A stretch of DNA of 64,000 bases, taken from positions 142,445 through 206,444 of the forward strand of contig NZ_DF967986.1 in the NCBI RefSeq assembly GCF_001047075.2. Direction: 5' to 3'. A program made the translations under genes and the position numbers. The stretch is from Fructobacillus ficulneus (GTDB lineage: Bacteria > Bacillota > Bacilli > Lactobacillales > Lactobacillaceae). Position 1 is the stretch's first letter; each line of letters opens with the position of its first letter. Below are positions 42,888-58,867 of this stretch, piece by piece. The notes under the pieces were generated by a model. It was not told the DNA's origin, did not search any database, and saw nothing but the letters and a program-made list of their open reading frames with translations.

Positions 42888-44969
42888 ATGAAAAAAAATA
42901 ATGGTGGTTTCTTCCGAAGCTCCTTTCTCTATGTCATCATTTTCTTGGCAGTTATTGCTGGAATATACTCCTTAGTTGGTGGATCAGGAAGTGGCAGCAA
43001 GTCACTGTCATCATCTGAATTTGTTCAGCAATTGTCTGATAAAGAAATTGATTCATTTACGATTCAGCCTGGCAACGACGTCTATACTGTTTCTGGAACA
43101 TATAAGTCAAGCCACAAAGCTGACTCAAGTAAGAGTCAGGGCATTAATGGCCTGCTTTCAGGTAAGACAGAAACGACAAAGTTTAGTACTTCTGTCTTGC
43201 AAAATGATTCTTCTTTGAAGCAAATCACGGATTTGGCCAAGAAGACTAATACTGATATGACAACTAAGGGTGCTGCATCATCTGGCTTCTGGTTGAACTT
43301 GATTATTTCAGTTGTACCTTTGCTCTTGATTGTTGGTGTCTTCTACTTGATGATGTCACAATCTAGTGGTAAGGGTGGCCAAGGCGGCATGATGGGATCC
43401 TTTGGAAAGTCAAAGGCTAAGCCATCTGACCCCAAGGATAACAAGGTTCGCTTTGAAAACGTTGCCGGTTCTGATGAGGAAAAAGAAGAATTGGTCGAAG
43501 TTGTTGAATTCTTGAAGGCCCCAAAGAAGTTCGTTGATATGGGTGCCCGGATTCCAAAGGGTGTCTTGCTTGAGGGACCTCCCGGAACTGGTAAGACATT
43601 GTTGGCCAAGGCCGTTGCTGGTGAAGCATCTGTGCCATTCTTCTCAATGTCTGGATCAGACTTCGTGGAAATGTTTGTTGGAGTTGGGGCATCACGTGTC
43701 CGCGACTTATTCGAACAAGCCAAGAAGGCTGCTCCTGCCATCATCTTTATTGATGAAATTGATGCCGTTGGTCGCCGTCGTGGCTCTGGTGTCGGTGGTG
43801 GTAACGATGAACGTGAACAAACTTTGAACCAAATCTTGATCGAAATGGATGGATTTGAAAACTCAGAGGGTGTTATCATTTTGGCATCAACTAACCGTTC
43901 TGACGTTTTGGACCCAGCTTTGCTTCGTTCTGGTCGTTTTGACCGAAAGATTTTGGTTGGTTCACCAGACGTTAAGGGCCGTGAAGCTATCTTGAAGGTT
44001 CACGCTAAGAACAAGCCATTAGCACCGGAAGTTGATTTGCAAGCAATTGCTCATCAAACTCCAGGTTATGTCGGGGCCGATTTGGAAAACTTATTGAACG
44101 AAGCAGCCTTGTTGGCCGCCCGTCGAGATAAGAAGTTAATTGATTCAGCTGATTTGGATGAAGCTGAGGACCGAATTTTCCAAGGACCTGCTAAGGCTAA
44201 CCGGGCCATGTCCGAGTTGGAACGGAAGACAACCGCCTTCCACGAAGCTGGTCACGCCTTAGTTGGTTTGGTTCGCTCGAATGCATCCGTTGTTCGAAAG
44301 GTTACTATCGTTCCTCGTGGTCGCATTGGTGGTTATGCCTTGATGACGCCAAAGACTGACCGTTATAATATTCGTTACTCCGAAGCTAAGGAACAATTAG
44401 CTGGTTTGATGGGTGGACGAGCTGCCGAGTTGGCAACATTTAATGAGGCCTCTTCAGGGGCAGCTAATGATTTCCAACAAGCAACGAATTTGGCTCGCCA
44501 AATGGTAACTGCTTATGGGATGTCTGAAAAGTTGGGTATGGTTCAATTAGAAGGAAATGCTTCTGTTGGCTATAGCGAACAAGGTGGTTCTCAGGGTTAC
44601 TCTGATGAAACTGCTGCATTGATTGATGAAGAAGTTCGTCGCTTTACGCGCGAAGCCTTCGAAGATGCAACTAAGATTTTGACTGAAAACAAGGAAAAGC
44701 TGGCACAAATTGCCAACGCCTTGCTCGAAGTTGAATCATTGGACGAAAAGCAAATTAAGGACATCTACGAAACTGGTCACTTCACTAAAAAAGGTGAAGA
44801 GGGCGAGGAAGACGCTAAGTCATACGATGAAACTAAGGCAGCTTTGAACCATAAAGAAGACGAAGTTGAAGAAGCTGAAGAGAAGGGTGCAGAAAACCCA
44901 ACGAAGCCACTTGATCAAGATAATGACCAAGCGGAAGCAGCTGATGATACACCGGATTCTGATAAATAA
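42888..44969 (+). CDS. ftsH: ATP-dependent zinc metalloprotease FtsH
   Basis: A 693-residue membrane protease with two transmembrane helices (about 12-30 and 128-148) around a small external domain. The AAA module has [21 protein letters not shown] and a second region of homology ending in SGRFDRKI, and the zinc site is HEAGH. The C-terminus is a long acidic tail ([14 protein letters not shown]...), usual in lactic acid bacteria. It degrades misassembled membrane proteins and regulators. A -10 TATAAT lies at 42846-42851. Confidence 0.97.
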
Positions 44970-45045: not shown

Positions 45046-45996
45046 ATGGCAGATCAACTAATCAAAGTAATTACCAAGGATAAGGCTTTCCGAGCCTTTG
45101 CCATTGATGGCACACAATTAGTGGCTAAGGCTGCTGAAGCCCACAATGCCTCACGAATTGCGACCGTCGTCTTGGGTCGGGCTTTGTTAGCGACAGAAAT
45201 CTTAGCTCAAGCAATTTTGAAGGGCGAGGAACGGCTTGGCGTTCAAATGGATGGCCGTGGGCCAATCGGTAAGGTCGTGACTGAAGCTAACGCCCATGGG
45301 GCTGTTCGTGGATATGTCACCAACCCACAGCTGGAACCAATCGTTAATGATGAAGACCAATTAAATATTGCTGGAGCTGTTGGAAACCATGGCTCTTTCC
45401 AGGTGACCAAGTTAGCACCCTACTCAAAGCCATATATTGGTCAATCAATTATTGTTTCGGGTGAAATTGGTGATGATTTTACCTATTACTTGACTCAATC
45501 AGAACAAATCCCATCCGTAATTGGTGTCGGTGTGACAATGAACGCTGACGGGACTGTTGCCCAAGCTGGTGGATTTTTAGTCCAAGCCTTACCTGGCACT
45601 ACTGATGCTCAGTTAGATGATTTGGACCAAAAGCTTAAGCAAATGAAACCTCTTGCTGAATTGTTGGCAGAGAAGAAGGGACCATTGGTTATTTTGGACA
45701 ACTTGATTGGCCAAGGAAACTATACATCATTGGATTCGGTCTCTGTTGGTTTGGCAGCCGAACCAGCCAAGGATGCCTATGCCGAAATGTTGGCGACATT
45801 GCCTTCCCATGAAGTCCAGGCAATGATTGACGAAGACGGCGGGGCCGAGGTAGTTGGTCGGTTCTCAGGGAAAAAACACTACTTTGAAGCAGCTGAATTA
45901 GAAAAGATTTTAAAAACAGTATTGGAACGTGAGGCTCGGGCAGAAGAAGGTGATGAGACAGACCAAGACCAAGATGACTCAAAGGACAACAAATAA
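45046..45996 (+). CDS. hslO: Hsp33-family chaperone without the redox-switch cysteines
   Basis: A 316-residue Hsp33 homolog. The N-terminal substrate-binding domain is well kept (VLGRALLATEILAQ, VQMDGRGPIGKVV, NHGSFQVTK, SEQIPSVIGVGV), as is the end of the C-terminal domain (EVQAMIDEDGGAEVV, then HYFEAAELEKIL). Known Hsp33 proteins hold zinc with Cys-x-Cys and Cys-x-x-Cys in this C-terminal domain. Here the positions of the second pair read Gly271 and Ser274, the region of the first pair contains only Val/Gly/Ala/Glu/Pro, and the protein has no Cys anywhere. It is placed between ftsH and lysS, the usual hslO position. Confidence 0.93.
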   Translation: MADQLIKVITKDKAFRAFAIDGTQLVAKAAEAHNASRIATVVLGRALLATEILAQAILKGEERLGVQMDGRGPIGKVVTEANAHGAVRGYVTNPQLEPIVNDEDQLNIAGAVGNHGSFQVTKLAPYSKPYIGQSIIVSGEIGDDFTYYLTQSEQIPSVIGVGVTMNADGTVAQAGGFLVQALPGTTDAQLDDLDQKLKQMKPLAELLAEKKGPLVILDNLIGQGNYTSLDSVSVGLAAEPAKDAYAEMLATLPSHEVQAMIDEDGGAEVVGRFSGKKHYFEAAELEKILKTVLEREARAEEGDETDQDQDDSKDNK

Positions 45997-46100: not shown

Positions 46101-47591
<1,491 letters not shown>

Positions 47592-47920: not shown

Positions 47921-49180
47921 ATGGAAATAGTTGATTCAACTCAATCGGGGCATCTTGGTTTGGAATATAGTAAGCAACAGCAGTTAACCTTTTGGTCGAC
48001 AACAGCCGGGTTCTTTTTAGAAAATATTGACGTGATGTTTGTCTCATTGACCCTATCGTCGATGATAGCTGCCTTTCACATTAGCAACTTTGCGGGGGGC
48101 TTGGTGGCAACCATTTATACCTTTGGTAGTCTCTTAGGTGGTTTGGTTTTCGGTATGGTTGCTGATCGAATTGGTCGAGCTAAGGTTTTCGTTTGGACAC
48201 TCTTTATCGTGGCCTTTGCAACTGTTGGTATGTTTTTTGCTAATAATATTGAAACGGTTTATCTCTTTCGTTTTATCGTTGGAATCGGAATTGGAGCCGA
48301 ATATGGAACCGGGGTAGCTTTAGTTGCTGAATCGTTTTCTGGAAAAGAAATGGGTCGGCTGATGGCTTTAATTCAGGTTGGCTGTGAAGCCGGATCTGCA
48401 ACAGCAGCTTTAATTGCTGCAGTTATTATTCCGGTCCTTGGTTGGCATGCAGTTTTCTTATTCGGTCTTTTGCCAGTTGTCTTTGCTTTTTTGATTCGCA
48501 TCCATTTGCGCGATAGTAGCAGTTTTGCTGAGCAAAAGCAGAGACGTGCGGAGCGAAAAGAATCTGCAAGCGAACGTCTGCCAATTATAGCTGTTTTTAA
48601 AACGCCGCAGTTAGCTCTACAGACCGTTGGTTTGAGTTTAATGATGATGGTCCAGGCAGGTGGTTATTATGGTTTGATGAACTGGTTACCCAAGATTTTG
48701 CAAAAGAAACTGGGAATTTCGACTTCATCATCATTACTTTGGATGATTGCTACCTTATTCGGTATATCAGTTGGTATGTATGTCTTTGGTATTTTGTTTG
48801 ATAAGTTGGGCGCCCGTAAGTCATTTGGAATTTACTTGTTGGTTGGAGCTGCCTCAGTCTACGCTTTGCTCTTTGCCCGAGATGGTTTGACATTGCTATT
48901 AACATTAGTATTTGTTGGCTTCTTTACTAGTGGGACCTATGGTGGTTTTGGAGTTGTCACGTCACGCCTATATGGAACTGAGGCACGAGCAACGGCAAAT
49001 TCAGTTGTTTCTTCGGTTGGAAAAGTACTTGGTGGTTTTTTCCCGACAATTATTGGGTTGATGATGGACAAGACATCCTTGTCAGTTGTTATGATGTTTT
49101 TCTCTGGAATTTACCTCTTTTCCTTTGTGGTCATGCTCTTAATGCCGGCATTTAAAAATCAAAAATTACAGACAAAATAA
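47921..49180 (+). CDS. MFS transporter (first of a tandem pair)
   Basis: A 419-residue major facilitator with 12 predicted helices and the loop 2-3 motif GMVADRIGRAKVF. An Asp lies in the first helix (ENIDVMFVS), and the late NWLPKIL segment resembles the aromatic acid:H+ symporter and related organic acid transporters. The substrate is not predictable. It is a clear paralog of the next gene, but its codon use is mixed (TTA, CTT, ATT, CAG) whereas the second copy has highly expressed-type codons. A ribosome binding site AGAGGTAAGAGGG is present. Confidence 0.85.
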   Translation: MEIVDSTQSGHLGLEYSKQQQLTFWSTTAGFFLENIDVMFVSLTLSSMIAAFHISNFAGGLVATIYTFGSLLGGLVFGMVADRIGRAKVFVWTLFIVAFATVGMFFANNIETVYLFRFIVGIGIGAEYGTGVALVAESFSGKEMGRLMALIQVGCEAGSATAALIAAVIIPVLGWHAVFLFGLLPVVFAFLIRIHLRDSSSFAEQKQRRAERKESASERLPIIAVFKTPQLALQTVGLSLMMMVQAGGYYGLMNWLPKILQKKLGISTSSSLLWMIATLFGISVGMYVFGILFDKLGARKSFGIYLLVGAASVYALLFARDGLTLLLTLVFVGFFTSGTYGGFGVVTSRLYGTEARATANSVVSSVGKVLGGFFPTIIGLMMDKTSLSVVMMFFSGIYLFSFVVMLLMPAFKNQKLQTK

Positions 49181-49345: not shown

Positions 49346-49387
49346 ATGGCGACCGTGATCGTCAATTTTGAAAGGAAGTTTTTTTAG
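49346..49387 (+). CDS. Putative 13-codon leader ORF before the second MFS gene
   Basis: ATG at 49346 has its own CTGGAGA ribosome binding site and encodes MATVIVNFERKFF. It stops with TAG one base before the ATG of the MFS gene (TAGTATG), and the AAAGGAAG ribosome binding site of the transporter lies inside it. Reinitiation or translational coupling is suggested. It could be chance, as the ORF is very short. Confidence 0.4.
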   Translation: MATVIVNFERKFF

Positions 49388-49388
49388 T

Positions 49389-50642
49389 ATGGCAGATATT
49401 ACCTTTGCGCAAAAAAATGAAGCTTTGCGCCACAAGCACTTTAGTAAGAATCAGAAGTTGACCCTCTGGTCAACGACTGCAGGATTTGGTTTGGAGAACA
49501 TGGACGTGATGTTCATTTCCTTCGCCCTTTCCTCAATCATCGCCTCATTGCACATCAGTAACTTTGCTGGTGGTTTGTTGGCAACAGTCTTTTCCTTAGG
49601 GTCATTGGCAGGAGGCCTATCCTTTGGACTCTTGGCTGACCGGTTTGGCCGGGCCCACATCTTTACTTGGACTTTGGTGATTGTGGCCTTCGCCACAGCC
49701 GGAATGTACTTTGCCCATAACATTTGGACTTTGTATGCTCTCCGCTTTATCGTTGGTGCCGGAACTGGGGCTGAATATAGTGCTGGTGTGACAATGGTTG
49801 CCGAAGCTTTTGAAGGCAAGAAGATTGGCCGCTTGATGTCAATCGTACAAATCGGTGGCCAGGGTGGATCAATCATTGCCGCCTTAGCAGCTGCCTACAT
49901 GATTCCTCACTTCGGTTGGAACTCATTGTTCTTAGTTGGTTTGATTCCAGTCATCTTCGCCTTCATCATTCGTTTGAACTTGAAGGATAGTGACGAATTC
50001 GAACAAGCTAAAGAAGCACGTGAAGCTAAAATTGTTGAAACACCAAAGGTCCCAATGGCTGAAGTCTTTAAGACACCGGCCTTGGCCTTGCAAACAATTG
50101 GTTTAATCTTGATGATGATGGTGCAAACTGGTGGTTACTATGGTTTGATGAACTGGTTGCCAAAGATTATGCAAAAGCAATTGCACCTTTCAGTTTCATC
50201 TTCATCAATGTGGATGATTGCCACAATCGTGGGAATGTCTTTGGGAATGTATGCCTTTGGAACAATTTTGGATAACTTTGGTCCACGTCGCGCCTTTGGA
50301 ATTTTCTTATTGGTCGCTGCGGCAGCAGTTTACCTCTTGCCAATGGCTAACAACGCCTTCAGCTTATTGTTGATTACCATGATGGTTGGATTCTTCTCAA
50401 ATGGTATGTACGGTGGTTACGGTGTGATTGTTTCACGCTTGTACGGGGTTGATATTCGAGTAACAGCGAACTCAGTTGTTTCATGTACTGGAAAGCTTTT
50501 GGGTGGCTTCTTCCCACCATTGGTTGGTCTAATGATGGATAAGACTTCATTACCAGTTGTGATGATGTTCTTTTCAGCCATTTACCTCTTCTCATTTGTG
50601 ATCATGATGTTGATCCCAGCCTTGAAGAAATTAGAAGCTTAA
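49389..50642 (+). CDS. MFS transporter (second of a tandem pair)
   Basis: A 417-residue major facilitator, paralogous to the preceding gene over its full length (shared LTxWSTTAGF, ISNFAGGL, GGYYGLMNWLPKI and LLGGFFP segments). It has the DRFGRAHIF loop motif and 12 helices. Codon bias is strong (TTG, GAA, AAC, CCA), like eno and groEL, so high expression is inferred. The ATG at 49389 is chosen because the AAAGGAAG site precedes it; a TTG at 49368 would lie before that site. The substrate is unknown. Confidence 0.85.
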   Translation: MADITFAQKNEALRHKHFSKNQKLTLWSTTAGFGLENMDVMFISFALSSIIASLHISNFAGGLLATVFSLGSLAGGLSFGLLADRFGRAHIFTWTLVIVAFATAGMYFAHNIWTLYALRFIVGAGTGAEYSAGVTMVAEAFEGKKIGRLMSIVQIGGQGGSIIAALAAAYMIPHFGWNSLFLVGLIPVIFAFIIRLNLKDSDEFEQAKEAREAKIVETPKVPMAEVFKTPALALQTIGLILMMMVQTGGYYGLMNWLPKIMQKQLHLSVSSSSMWMIATIVGMSLGMYAFGTILDNFGPRRAFGIFLLVAAAAVYLLPMANNAFSLLLITMMVGFFSNGMYGGYGVIVSRLYGVDIRVTANSVVSCTGKLLGGFFPPLVGLMMDKTSLPVVMMFFSAIYLFSFVIMMLIPALKKLEA

Positions 50643-56856: not shown

Positions 56857-58125
56857 ATGATTGAACGCAGCAACTTATATGGTCGGTTAGTAACTTGGCC
56901 GAAAACAGAGCCTTTGCCAGTTGATTGCTCAGTTATGCCAACTTTCATTGGCAAGCGTTGCCAACGCTGTGGACAAGATAATCGGGCAGCATTGCCTGGA
57001 AACCACTGGTACTGCCTGGCTTGTTTGAAACTCGGGCGAGTTTCAACTCGGGATGTTTTGCTATTTTTACCGGAGCCCAATGACTTTCCTCCAGTTGCAC
57101 CAATGACCTGGCGCGGACAATTAACCAGCCGGCAGGCCACTGTCAGTCAAGACCTAGTGCAGTCCTACCAAGACCACCGCGACCACTTGGTCTGGGCGGT
57201 CACGGGAGCTGGGAAAACCGAGATGCTTTTTCCAGTGATTGACTGGGCTTTACACCACCGGGGACGGGTGGCAATACTATCTCCCCGGGTCGACGTTGTT
57301 TTAGAGTTAGCCCCACGGTTGCAGGCGGCTTTTTCTACTCCAATCCAAGTCTTGCATGGCCAAGAACGAATCCCCTATCATTACCGGCAATTAGTCTTAG
57401 CCACAACCCATCAGGCACTGCGGTTTCGTCAGGCCTTTGATTTGATTGTGGTTGATGAGGTCGATGCCTTTCCCTTTCGAGGTGATGAAGCTTTAGCCTA
57501 TGCAGTTAGTCAGGCGAAGAAGAAAGAGGGAATGGTTGTTTATTTGACAGCAACACCGACCCCAGACTTGTTAAAACGAGTAAAGCACGGTCAACTGCGC
57601 CAGTCATACTTACCGCAACGGTTTCATGGCGGGGCATTACCATTGATTCAAGTTGTCAGGGTAGGTGATTGGCGAAAACGGTGTCCGCGTCGACTAGCAG
57701 AAGCGGTTAAACATTGGCAAGACACAAAAACGCCGTTTTTGATTTTTGTACCAGAAATAAAGGACCTGGTACTGGTGGAAAAATACTTGCAAGACTTTCC
57801 CACACTTAAAGGTGCTACCGTGTACTCGCAGGACCCTGACCGAGCCTTGAAGGTGGTTAAACTTCGACGAGGTGACTACCAATATCTGATTACCACGACC
57901 ATTCTTGAACGAGGGGTAACGGTGCCTGGATTGGAAGTTGCTATCCTGGGTGCCGATGAGGGCACGTTTTCAACTGCGGCCCTGGTCCAAATTGCAGGTC
58001 GGGTTGGCCGGTCTAAGGACCGACAAGATGGACTCGTCTTAGCGTTAGTGCAGGAGCAAACATTGCCTTTACGAAGGGCACAACAGCAAATTGCGGCCCT
58101 AAATCAAAAGGCTCAAGGCCACTAA
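56857..58125 (+). CDS. comFA: Competence protein ComFA, DNA-uptake helicase-like ATPase
   Basis: A 422-residue superfamily 2 ATPase with an N-terminal zinc-finger-like Cys4 (CQRCGQ, CLAC), Walker A AVTGAGKTEML (about 115), the DEAD-box-like VVDEVDAFP, TATPTP and the late GRVGRSKDRQDG. ComFA helps pull single-stranded DNA through the membrane during transformation. It is intact and followed 10 bp later by comFC. Natural competence is not demonstrated by this alone. Confidence 0.94.
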   Translation: MIERSNLYGRLVTWPKTEPLPVDCSVMPTFIGKRCQRCGQDNRAALPGNHWYCLACLKLGRVSTRDVLLFLPEPNDFPPVAPMTWRGQLTSRQATVSQDLVQSYQDHRDHLVWAVTGAGKTEMLFPVIDWALHHRGRVAILSPRVDVVLELAPRLQAAFSTPIQVLHGQERIPYHYRQLVLATTHQALRFRQAFDLIVVDEVDAFPFRGDEALAYAVSQAKKKEGMVVYLTATPTPDLLKRVKHGQLRQSYLPQRFHGGALPLIQVVRVGDWRKRCPRRLAEAVKHWQDTKTPFLIFVPEIKDLVLVEKYLQDFPTLKGATVYSQDPDRALKVVKLRRGDYQYLITTTILERGVTVPGLEVAILGADEGTFSTAALVQIAGRVGRSKDRQDGLVLALVQEQTLPLRRAQQQIAALNQKAQGH

Positions 58126-58135
58126 AGGAGAAAGC

Positions 58136-58867
58136 ATGACCTGTTTACTATGCCAAAAGACATTGGAGGCTCAACTAAGTTTTGCTGATCGGATTCTGGG
58201 ACGAACAAGTCCGACCGAGTTGGTCTGCCAAAAATGTCGTGATTCCTTTGTCACCATTAAAGGCCTGACCTGTCGTGGTTGTGGCCGACCACTTACGCCT
58301 GAGATTGATCGTGGAGAAGATGGGACAATCTGCTTTGAATGCCAATTCTGGCTGAACCGACTCGGCTATCTCTTAGGTCATCAGGCCCTCTATGAATATG
58401 GGCCAGAACTGAAGCTGTACATGGCGGCCTATAAGTTTATGGGGGACTACCGCCTCAATATTATTTTTCGAGAGAAAATGCGGCGATTTATCAAAAGGAT
58501 TTGCCAGCAGCAAAAGATTGACTTGATTGTGCCAATTCCGGTGAGTCAGAAACGGTTCAATCAAAGGGGATTTAACCAGGTCCAACCATGGCTACCCAAG
58601 ATCGCCCAAAATCTTTTAATCGTTGATTTGGCAAACAAGGTGGATCAATCAAGTTTAGACCGCCATGCCCGTCTACACAGTCCGCAACCGTTTCGATTAA
58701 GTGAGGACTGTGGTCCTAAAATTAAAAATCGTCGAGTTCTGTTGGTGGACGACATCTATACAACCGGACGGACATTGTATCATGGTGCTGAGTGCTTTTA
58801 TCAGTTAGGGGCTGCGAAGGTTAGTTCGCTTTCGTTGGTCAGGTCTGGGGATGTCGATGACGGGTGA
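58136..58867 (+). CDS. comFC: Competence protein ComFC, phosphoribosyltransferase-like
   Basis: A 243-residue protein with an N-terminal double zinc-finger region (CLLCQKT, CQKCRD, CRGCGRP, CFECQF) and a C-terminal PRTase domain with VLLVDDIYTTGRTL. ComFC (ComF/GntX family) is needed for transformation and works with ComFA. It is complete and in an operon with comFA. Confidence 0.94.
   Translation: MTCLLCQKTLEAQLSFADRILGRTSPTELVCQKCRDSFVTIKGLTCRGCGRPLTPEIDRGEDGTICFECQFWLNRLGYLLGHQALYEYGPELKLYMAAYKFMGDYRLNIIFREKMRRFIKRICQQQKIDLIVPIPVSQKRFNQRGFNQVQPWLPKIAQNLLIVDLANKVDQSSLDRHARLHSPQPFRLSEDCGPKIKNRRVLLVDDIYTTGRTLYHGAECFYQLGAAKVSSLSLVRSGDVDDG

Follow-up and report, generated by a model that had tools for sequence, protein, structure and literature searches.

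The chaperone Hsp33 has lost all four cysteines of its zinc-thiolate switch in a clade of the Lactobacillaceae that comprises Fructobacillus, Convivina, Leuconostoc, Oenococcus and the genera coded here as g18 and g39. This loss happened once, in the common ancestor of the clade, and the former switch domain is still under selection. The zinc finger of DnaJ was lost as well, and the clade proteins that we sampled are depleted in cysteine. We place somewhat more trust than doubt in one explanation for the whole: a single loss of the zinc switch in the course of a retreat from cysteine, after which Hsp33 was kept as a chaperone opened by unfolding.

In the window, the whole 64,000-nucleotide stretch of Fructobacillus ficulneus DNA that was analysed, hslO lies on the forward strand at positions 45046-45996 and encodes 316 residues with 0 cysteines. 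The protein matches profile PF01430 with 244.6 bits against a cut-off of 21.4, and this is the single match in the genome, which is 89% complete. On the HslO equivalog profile NF001033 it reaches 251.4 bits, barely above the cut-off of 244, and a Pediococcus control Hsp33 scores 381.9 bits. The nearest named relatives are the proteins of Fructobacillus pseudoficulneus and F. tropaeoli, with 82-85% identity. The upstream and downstream neighbours, which we take from the look of their sequences to be ftsH (42888-44969, forward strand) and lysS (46107-47591, forward strand), were used as tree markers. This neighbourhood is as in cysteine-bearing Lactobacillaceae: among 171 hslO loci plus the window, some of the loci being incomplete, an ftsH-like frame is found in 166 of 172 sequences and a lysS-like frame in 151 of 172, where presence in the locus and not gene order was scored. 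By its profiles, predicted fold and neighbourhood, the window protein is an HslO ortholog by descent. A scan of the window for CtsR operators gave 2 sites with 2 mismatches, none near hslO and at chance level, and a scan for promoters and terminators gave nothing exceeding shuffled sequence.

The window protein is like the redox Hsp33 of E. coli and B. subtilis in homologous sequence, three-part architecture and predicted fold. Unlike them, the clade protein is without all four of the cysteines that bind zinc and form disulfides. We placed the domain borders on the alignment used for the dN comparison. The N-terminal chaperone core covers residues 1-182 (45046-45591) and is followed by the linker, residues 183-233 (45592-45744), which is helical in the AlphaFold2 prediction. 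The former redox-switch domain, residues 234-289 (45745-45912), is conserved and predicted to be folded, with all of its zinc ligands gone, and the acidic C-terminal tail, residues 290-316 (45913-45993), is poorly predicted at its end (pLDDT below 50 for 305-316); all of these lie on the forward strand. In place of the C-x-C and C-x-x-C ligands of a redox-regulated zinc Hsp33, the protein has A238 (codon gcc, 45757-45759), P240 (cca, 45763-45765), G271 (ggt, 45856-45858) and S274 (tca, 45865-45867), also on the forward strand. These features set it apart from the redox-regulated zinc Hsp33 proteins, to which it does not belong, and since it contains no cysteine, activation through an intrachain disulfide by an oxidant is impossible. 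The sequence-only reading had seen that the protein lacks cysteine, naming positions 271 and 274 correctly, and was right that the thiol switch and the known zinc site are lost, as all four ligand positions are replaced. Its view that the chaperone and C-terminal framework is kept is supported as well.

The loss extends over the whole clade. We examined the zinc positions in 197 Hsp33 rows, 75 of them from the clade, with some species present from two sources and the window entered twice. Four rows were unreadable because a frameshift splits the gene, namely L060 and L137 (Leuconostoc fallax) and, outside the clade, L139 and L140. None of the 73 readable clade rows (47 distinct sequences) has cysteine at any of the four positions. 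Outside the clade, all four cysteines are present in 118 of 120 readable rows and three in the other two (L172 and L227), so chance is not the explanation of their absence in the clade. Among the 73 readable clade rows, 59 have no cysteine in the entire open frame, which may extend upstream of the start codon, and 14 carry one or two at other places in it. The four positions read A-P-G-S in 54 rows, which make up the entire Fructobacillus-Leuconostoc-Convivina part, and P-x-D-T in the 10 rows of g18, seven of these being P-I-D-T; in the nine Oenococcus rows they are mixed, with leucine at the second place. The names of g6, g16, g29 and g39 come from identical or clustering sequences of named records, and g18 is probably Weissella, by elimination, with Periweissella not located. 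A zinc site rebuilt from other ligands was considered and rejected on sequence grounds, as the four columns, to which the search was confined, hold no conserved set of His, Asp or Glu; g18 and part of the Oenococcus rows have Asp as the third of the four residues, which was judged insufficient.

In a sample of 251 genomes of the family, an Hsp33 match is present in 44 of 44 clade genomes, each examined individually, with the gene of G007 being broken. Among the 207 non-clade genomes, 200 have a match, of which 47 were read (two of them split) and the others are known by score alone. We found no Hsp33 match in G009, G048, G079 and G106 (g9), G105 and G155 (g8) and G165 (g24), and all of these have a DnaJ zinc finger. 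The match is also absent from 81 of the 199 genomes of the phylum sample. None of 25 low-scoring Hsp33 genes from outside the family (11 and 14 genes, with the low or partial scorers G543 and G502 left out) is missing more than one of the four cysteines; most non-clade genes are known by score only, and a high-scoring lineage without cysteines could have escaped. One partial and separate loss was seen in L172 (genome G275, family code f5, genus code g58), which reads C-Y-C-C with tyrosine at the second zinc cysteine, and the Hsp33 fragment L227 reads C-C-F-C. In L139 (G158) and L140 (G002), hslO lies in two overlapping frames with the cysteines in the second piece, which points to a frameshift or an assembly error.

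The sequence-only reading had proposed to date the loss by comparing hslO among relatives, and this places it on the stem of the whole clade. A tree made by a quick method from 104 rows of FtsH only calls for two changes of the trait, and one is also compatible with that tree. On a tree from FtsH, LysS and the Hsp33 core (38 rows, careful method), from which the linker and C-terminal columns of Hsp33 were omitted, the trait changes once, on a branch with support of 100/100, and the single change recurs in 100% of 200 bootstrap trees. Since there is one change on a supported branch, the loss is assigned to the stem of the former Leuconostocaceae. Thus, the cysteines of Hsp33 were lost once, in the common ancestor of the clade.

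The domain that held the zinc has not been released from selection. Because most pairs show saturation at synonymous sites (median dS 1.66-2.96 in four cysteine-less genera), we compared dN between domains, in 33 rows taken from the 73 of the clade and in 27 rows with cysteines. The ratio of C-terminal to core dN is 1.80, 1.25, 1.25 and 1.29 in the four cysteine-less genera, while four genera with cysteines give 2.47, 2.68, 1.25 and 2.17. Because the ratio is not above that of the relatives, the C-terminal domain is no freer to change without its cysteines, and relaxed selection or decay of this domain is unsupported by the dN ratios. Omega of the domain is 0.058 in three Leuconostoc pairs and 0.049 in one Oenococcus pair, the only pairs for which it could be computed. 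Ten residues, K242, Y245, T251, L252, P253, D264, G266, F273, F280 and L285, are present in 33 of 33 cysteine-less rows. Among these, Y245, T251 and P253 are fixed in the cysteine-less rows, whereas the 27 relatives vary there or have phenylalanine at 245.

The predicted structure agrees with a domain that is still folded. With an alignment of cysteine-less proteins only (29 rows, thus shallow), AlphaFold2 gave a mean pLDDT of 84.6 for the window Hsp33, with values of 86-96 for the ten-residue blocks between residues 231 and 290 and with helices in the linker, though such a model cannot demonstrate stability without metal. The Pediococcus control with four cysteines has a mean of 91.9 and 86-92 in the same C-terminal blocks, so that the domain is predicted with no less confidence in the cysteine-less protein. 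Residues 139-153, which include several invariant positions, fall below 50 in the window model and not in the control; our guess is that this is an effect of the shallow alignment. In a VIA-align comparison, the window model matches B. subtilis Hsp33 (1vzy) with Z 33.1 and an rmsd of 2.8 over 288 residues, the match spanning 2-293, and matches 1vq0 with Z 31.2 over 286 residues. Among the chains listed by the fold search, none apart from Hsp33 entries is above Z 5.1, which makes the search uninformative on other folds. As judged from the alignments, purifying selection still acts on the former switch domain, which is predicted to be folded in the closed arrangement.

We give next to no credence to the idea that the missing cysteines are an artefact, that is, a sequencing error, a decaying pseudogene or a hidden second hslO, and for the clade this idea is refuted. 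It could draw on the incompleteness of the window genome and on the relative L. fallax (L060 and L137, genome G007), in which hslO is broken. However, the loss is repeated in 44 genomes and in named records, in open frames with low dN and with one gene per genome. The sequence-only reading had itself named a sequencing error as a possible fault, and A-P-G-S in 12 of 12 sampled genomes of the genus of the window (its own counted) and in all ten of the named Fructobacillus records speaks against this. Nor did the second, cysteine-bearing hslO that it had allowed for turn up, as there is one match in the window genome and one in each other clade genome except G007, whose two matches are pieces of one frameshifted gene; of these other 43 genomes, 41 are 91-100% complete, while G168 is at 65% and G189 at 68%. 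In G007, dnaJ and clpX are broken as well, which points to assembly errors there, and the broken genes of L. fallax are more likely sequencing errors than real losses. A real protein without cysteine could still sense oxidants, through N-chlorination of lysine or arginine or through oxidation of methionine. HOCl makes E. coli RidA a chaperone by N-chlorination (PMC4284807), and K276 is present in 30 of 33 cysteine-less rows and R or K277 in 29 of 33. But cysteine-bearing proteins have K277 just as often (25 of 27), and we regard a switch of this kind as very improbable.

Two further readings concern the state in which the clade protein is held. In E. coli Hsp33, four zinc thiolates are reported to stabilise the linker; oxidation frees the zinc, the linker unfolds and the client surface is exposed, and one mutation that destabilises the linker activates the protein and makes it constitutive, replacing oxidation (PMC4735815). 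By analogy, the linker of the clade protein might never be locked without zinc, and Hsp33 would be a constitutive holdase with unfolding clients always bound. The linker is the fastest-evolving part of the protein in Fructobacillus (linker/core dN 3.34) and g18 (2.33), but the ratios are equally wide in cysteine-bearing genera (1.62-3.30). Moreover, a domain that locks nothing should drift, yet the C-terminal rate is not raised, and in the model the domain is folded and the linker helices are formed. We therefore consider constitutive activity unlikely. A shade less probable again, in our view, is a protein locked in a form like the reduced one and kept for unfolding EF-Tu for proteolysis, not for holding clients. 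Only reduced E. coli Hsp33, with its switch domain folded, is described as binding and unfolding EF-Tu (PMC8614738), and a permanently folded domain, as modelled, would fix this state. However, the core and the linker are conserved as well, and nothing singles out the EF-Tu function. On the alignments and the model, a protein that is closed by default and opened by unfolding fits better than one that is always open. The sequence-only reading had suggested altered regulation, either constitutive or by another signal, for which it named acid, bile and hypochlorite as candidates: the loss of thiol switching stands, and constitutive activity is possible, though not favoured given the purifying selection and the predicted closed fold.

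DnaJ was included as a control for a second zinc-thiolate chaperone, and an intact finger had been expected. In the window genome, no DnaJ zinc finger scores above the cut-off; the weak match sits in a frame that we take to be UvrA-like. The only DnaJ_C match in this genome is a 310-residue frame with 0 cysteines directly after a DnaK-like frame (dnaJ, L184, G000:C28:226512-226970), and it has no zinc finger. In an alignment of DnaJ proteins, 19 of 19 intact clade proteins have no CxxCxGxG motif and 10 of 10 outside proteins have four; one further clade row, L212 from G007, comes from a broken gene, and no DnaJ_C match was obtained for G168. Thus, the clade DnaJ is without the four CxxCxGxG motifs of a class A (type I) DnaJ. 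Across the 251-genome sample, a DnaJ zinc finger over the cut-off is found in 0 of 44 clade genomes as against 206 of 207 others, and the one exception, G174, is an assembly that is 76% complete. A wholesale loss of zinc-cysteine proteins is contradicted by the ClpX zinc finger, which 29 of 30 genomes have, G168 again being the exception, and by the UvrA-like frame of the window genome, which retains its CxxC pairs. Since ClpX keeps its finger, zinc fingers were not generally lost. Hsp33 is reported to pass clients to the DnaK system (PMC7423844). In E. coli, deletion of the cysteine-rich segment 144-195 of DnaJ weakens refolding of oxidised rhodanese, and thioredoxin partly compensates (PMC4428491). 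Oenococcus oeni has been reported without hrcA, clpE, mcsA and mcsB (PMC6305308).

The clade is also poor in cysteine. Around hslO, cysteine makes up 0.125% of residues in the clade versus 0.286% in cysteine-bearing lineages. Away from hslO, each of 10 clade genomes (loci L258-L277 and L298-L317) and 10 other Lactobacillaceae was sampled with four stretches of 20 kb whose coordinates were fixed; the genomes were picked for a long first contig and frames of at least 200 residues were counted, so that these are samples and not whole proteomes. Cysteine is at 0.186% in the clade (0.10-0.31 per genome), with 283 of 491 frames free of it, and at 0.438% in the other Lactobacillaceae (0.23-0.65 per genome), with 159 of 483 frames free of it. 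The difference over genomes has a Mann-Whitney p of 0.0006, and of 60 reciprocal best pairs, 32 have fewer cysteines on the clade side and 4 have more; such p values overstate the evidence because genomes and pairs share descent, and the contrast is one clade against its relatives. Cysteine is the sole amino acid far off between the two groups (ratio 0.42), all others being at 0.91-1.14. Ten more distant Bacillota treated in the same way are at 0.631% (range 0.29-1.16), with some other Lactobacillales at 0.29-0.39%. There is overlap, as the Lactobacillaceae G027 (0.23%) and G153 (0.27%) lie within the clade range. Thus, low cysteine is graded and not unique to the clade, and it does not by itself bring the losses, because G153 keeps both the four Hsp33 cysteines and the DnaJ finger. 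The window, at 0.287%, is near the top of the clade range, and 31 of its 51 frames of at least 150 residues are cysteine-free. Two adjacent frames at 56857-58122 and 58136-58864, which presumably encode ComFA and ComFC from their resemblance, carry paired CxxC motifs in this cysteine-poor genome.

A published comparison of 23 bacteria gives a median of 0.91% cysteine and names Deinococcus radiodurans as the low outlier at 0.667% (PMC10642813). Our clade samples, at 0.10-0.31% in frames of at least 200 residues, resemble this species in being cysteine-poor and appear to lie well below any bacterium of that comparison, which is rough because small proteins are omitted, our figures come from samples and other Lactobacillaceae are below 0.667% as well. 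With confidence just short of even, we suggest that the clade shed cysteine from its proteome, took thiol-zinc chemistry out of the Hsp33-DnaJ axis, kept both proteins, and now has in Hsp33 a metal-free stress switch. The sequence-only reading, which had one window, missed that DnaJ has lost its zinc finger too and that cysteine is depleted throughout the clade.

These observations suggest the following course of events. The zinc-thiolate switch was lost once, in the ancestor shared by Fructobacillus, Convivina, Leuconostoc, Oenococcus and g18, probably as one step of a broader turn away from cysteine in which DnaJ also lost its zinc finger; DnaJ belongs to the foldase machinery that receives the clients of Hsp33. 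In a cysteine-poor proteome, few proteins should unfold through thiol oxidation, and a thiol sensor would be of little use; both thiol sensing and thiol repair by chaperones may lose their value when proteome thiols are scarce. Hsp33 would have been retained because other functions, independent of thiols, remain. The former switch domain, as far as the model can tell, may fold without metal, cap the linker and keep it docked. The oxidation step cannot occur in the clade Hsp33 because there are no thiols, and heat, acid or ethanol would instead unfold the linker and expose the chaperone surface. We infer that opening is probably brought about by unfolding stress of this kind. Scarcity of cysteine is the cause that we favour for the two losses; because both lie on one branch, their link with it is a single event and may be coincidence.

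The four cysteines of Hsp33 have been termed absolutely conserved in a 2016 paper (PMC4735815). A 2020 analysis of 1579 Hsp33 homologs describes them as highly conserved, with fewer than 10 lacking the second (PMC7423844). These partial losses, like those in L172 and L227, affect one of four positions and are not clade-wide as far as that analysis and our rows show. A similar case is the alga Chlamydomonas, whose Hsp33 no longer binds zinc and is described as more readily affected by unfolding conditions, among them mild heat (PMC7423844, citing Segal and Shapira 2015); it lost one cysteine, while the bacterial clade lost all four. Among DnaJ proteins, CbpA, DNAJB and the E. coli 144-195 deletion are zinc-less like the clade DnaJ, a correspondence by motif only (PMC4428491). 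The loss in the clade differs from these in being clade-wide and in affecting the only DnaJ_C protein of the window genome, directly after dnaK. In titles and abstract openings on Hsp33, DnaJ and cysteine content for these genera, from a search that covered few subscription journals, we found no report of either loss or of the depletion.

Members of this clade are important in wine, dairy, kimchi and insect guts, settings in which survival is decided by stress from acid, ethanol, sulfite and heat. Textbooks present Hsp33 as the redox-regulated chaperone. A clade in which both the protein and its switch domain were retained while the chemistry was dropped is a natural case of separation of function. 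It shows that Hsp33 does selectable and testable work that is independent of thiols and of the zinc site. The co-loss in DnaJ and the depletion of cysteine suggest a cause, namely few oxidisable thiols, that can be compared in other cysteine-poor lineages. If the metal-free switch and the thiol-free axis are real, the clade has, by nature and since ancient times, a form without thiols of a chaperone pathway believed to depend on them. In these food bacteria, part of the protein-rescue system appears to work without cysteine chemistry. In the window, downstream of lysS, the frames at 47921-49180 and 49368-50642 are neighbouring, similar-looking genes for membrane transporters, whose products we take to resemble major facilitator proteins and which perhaps arose by tandem duplication.
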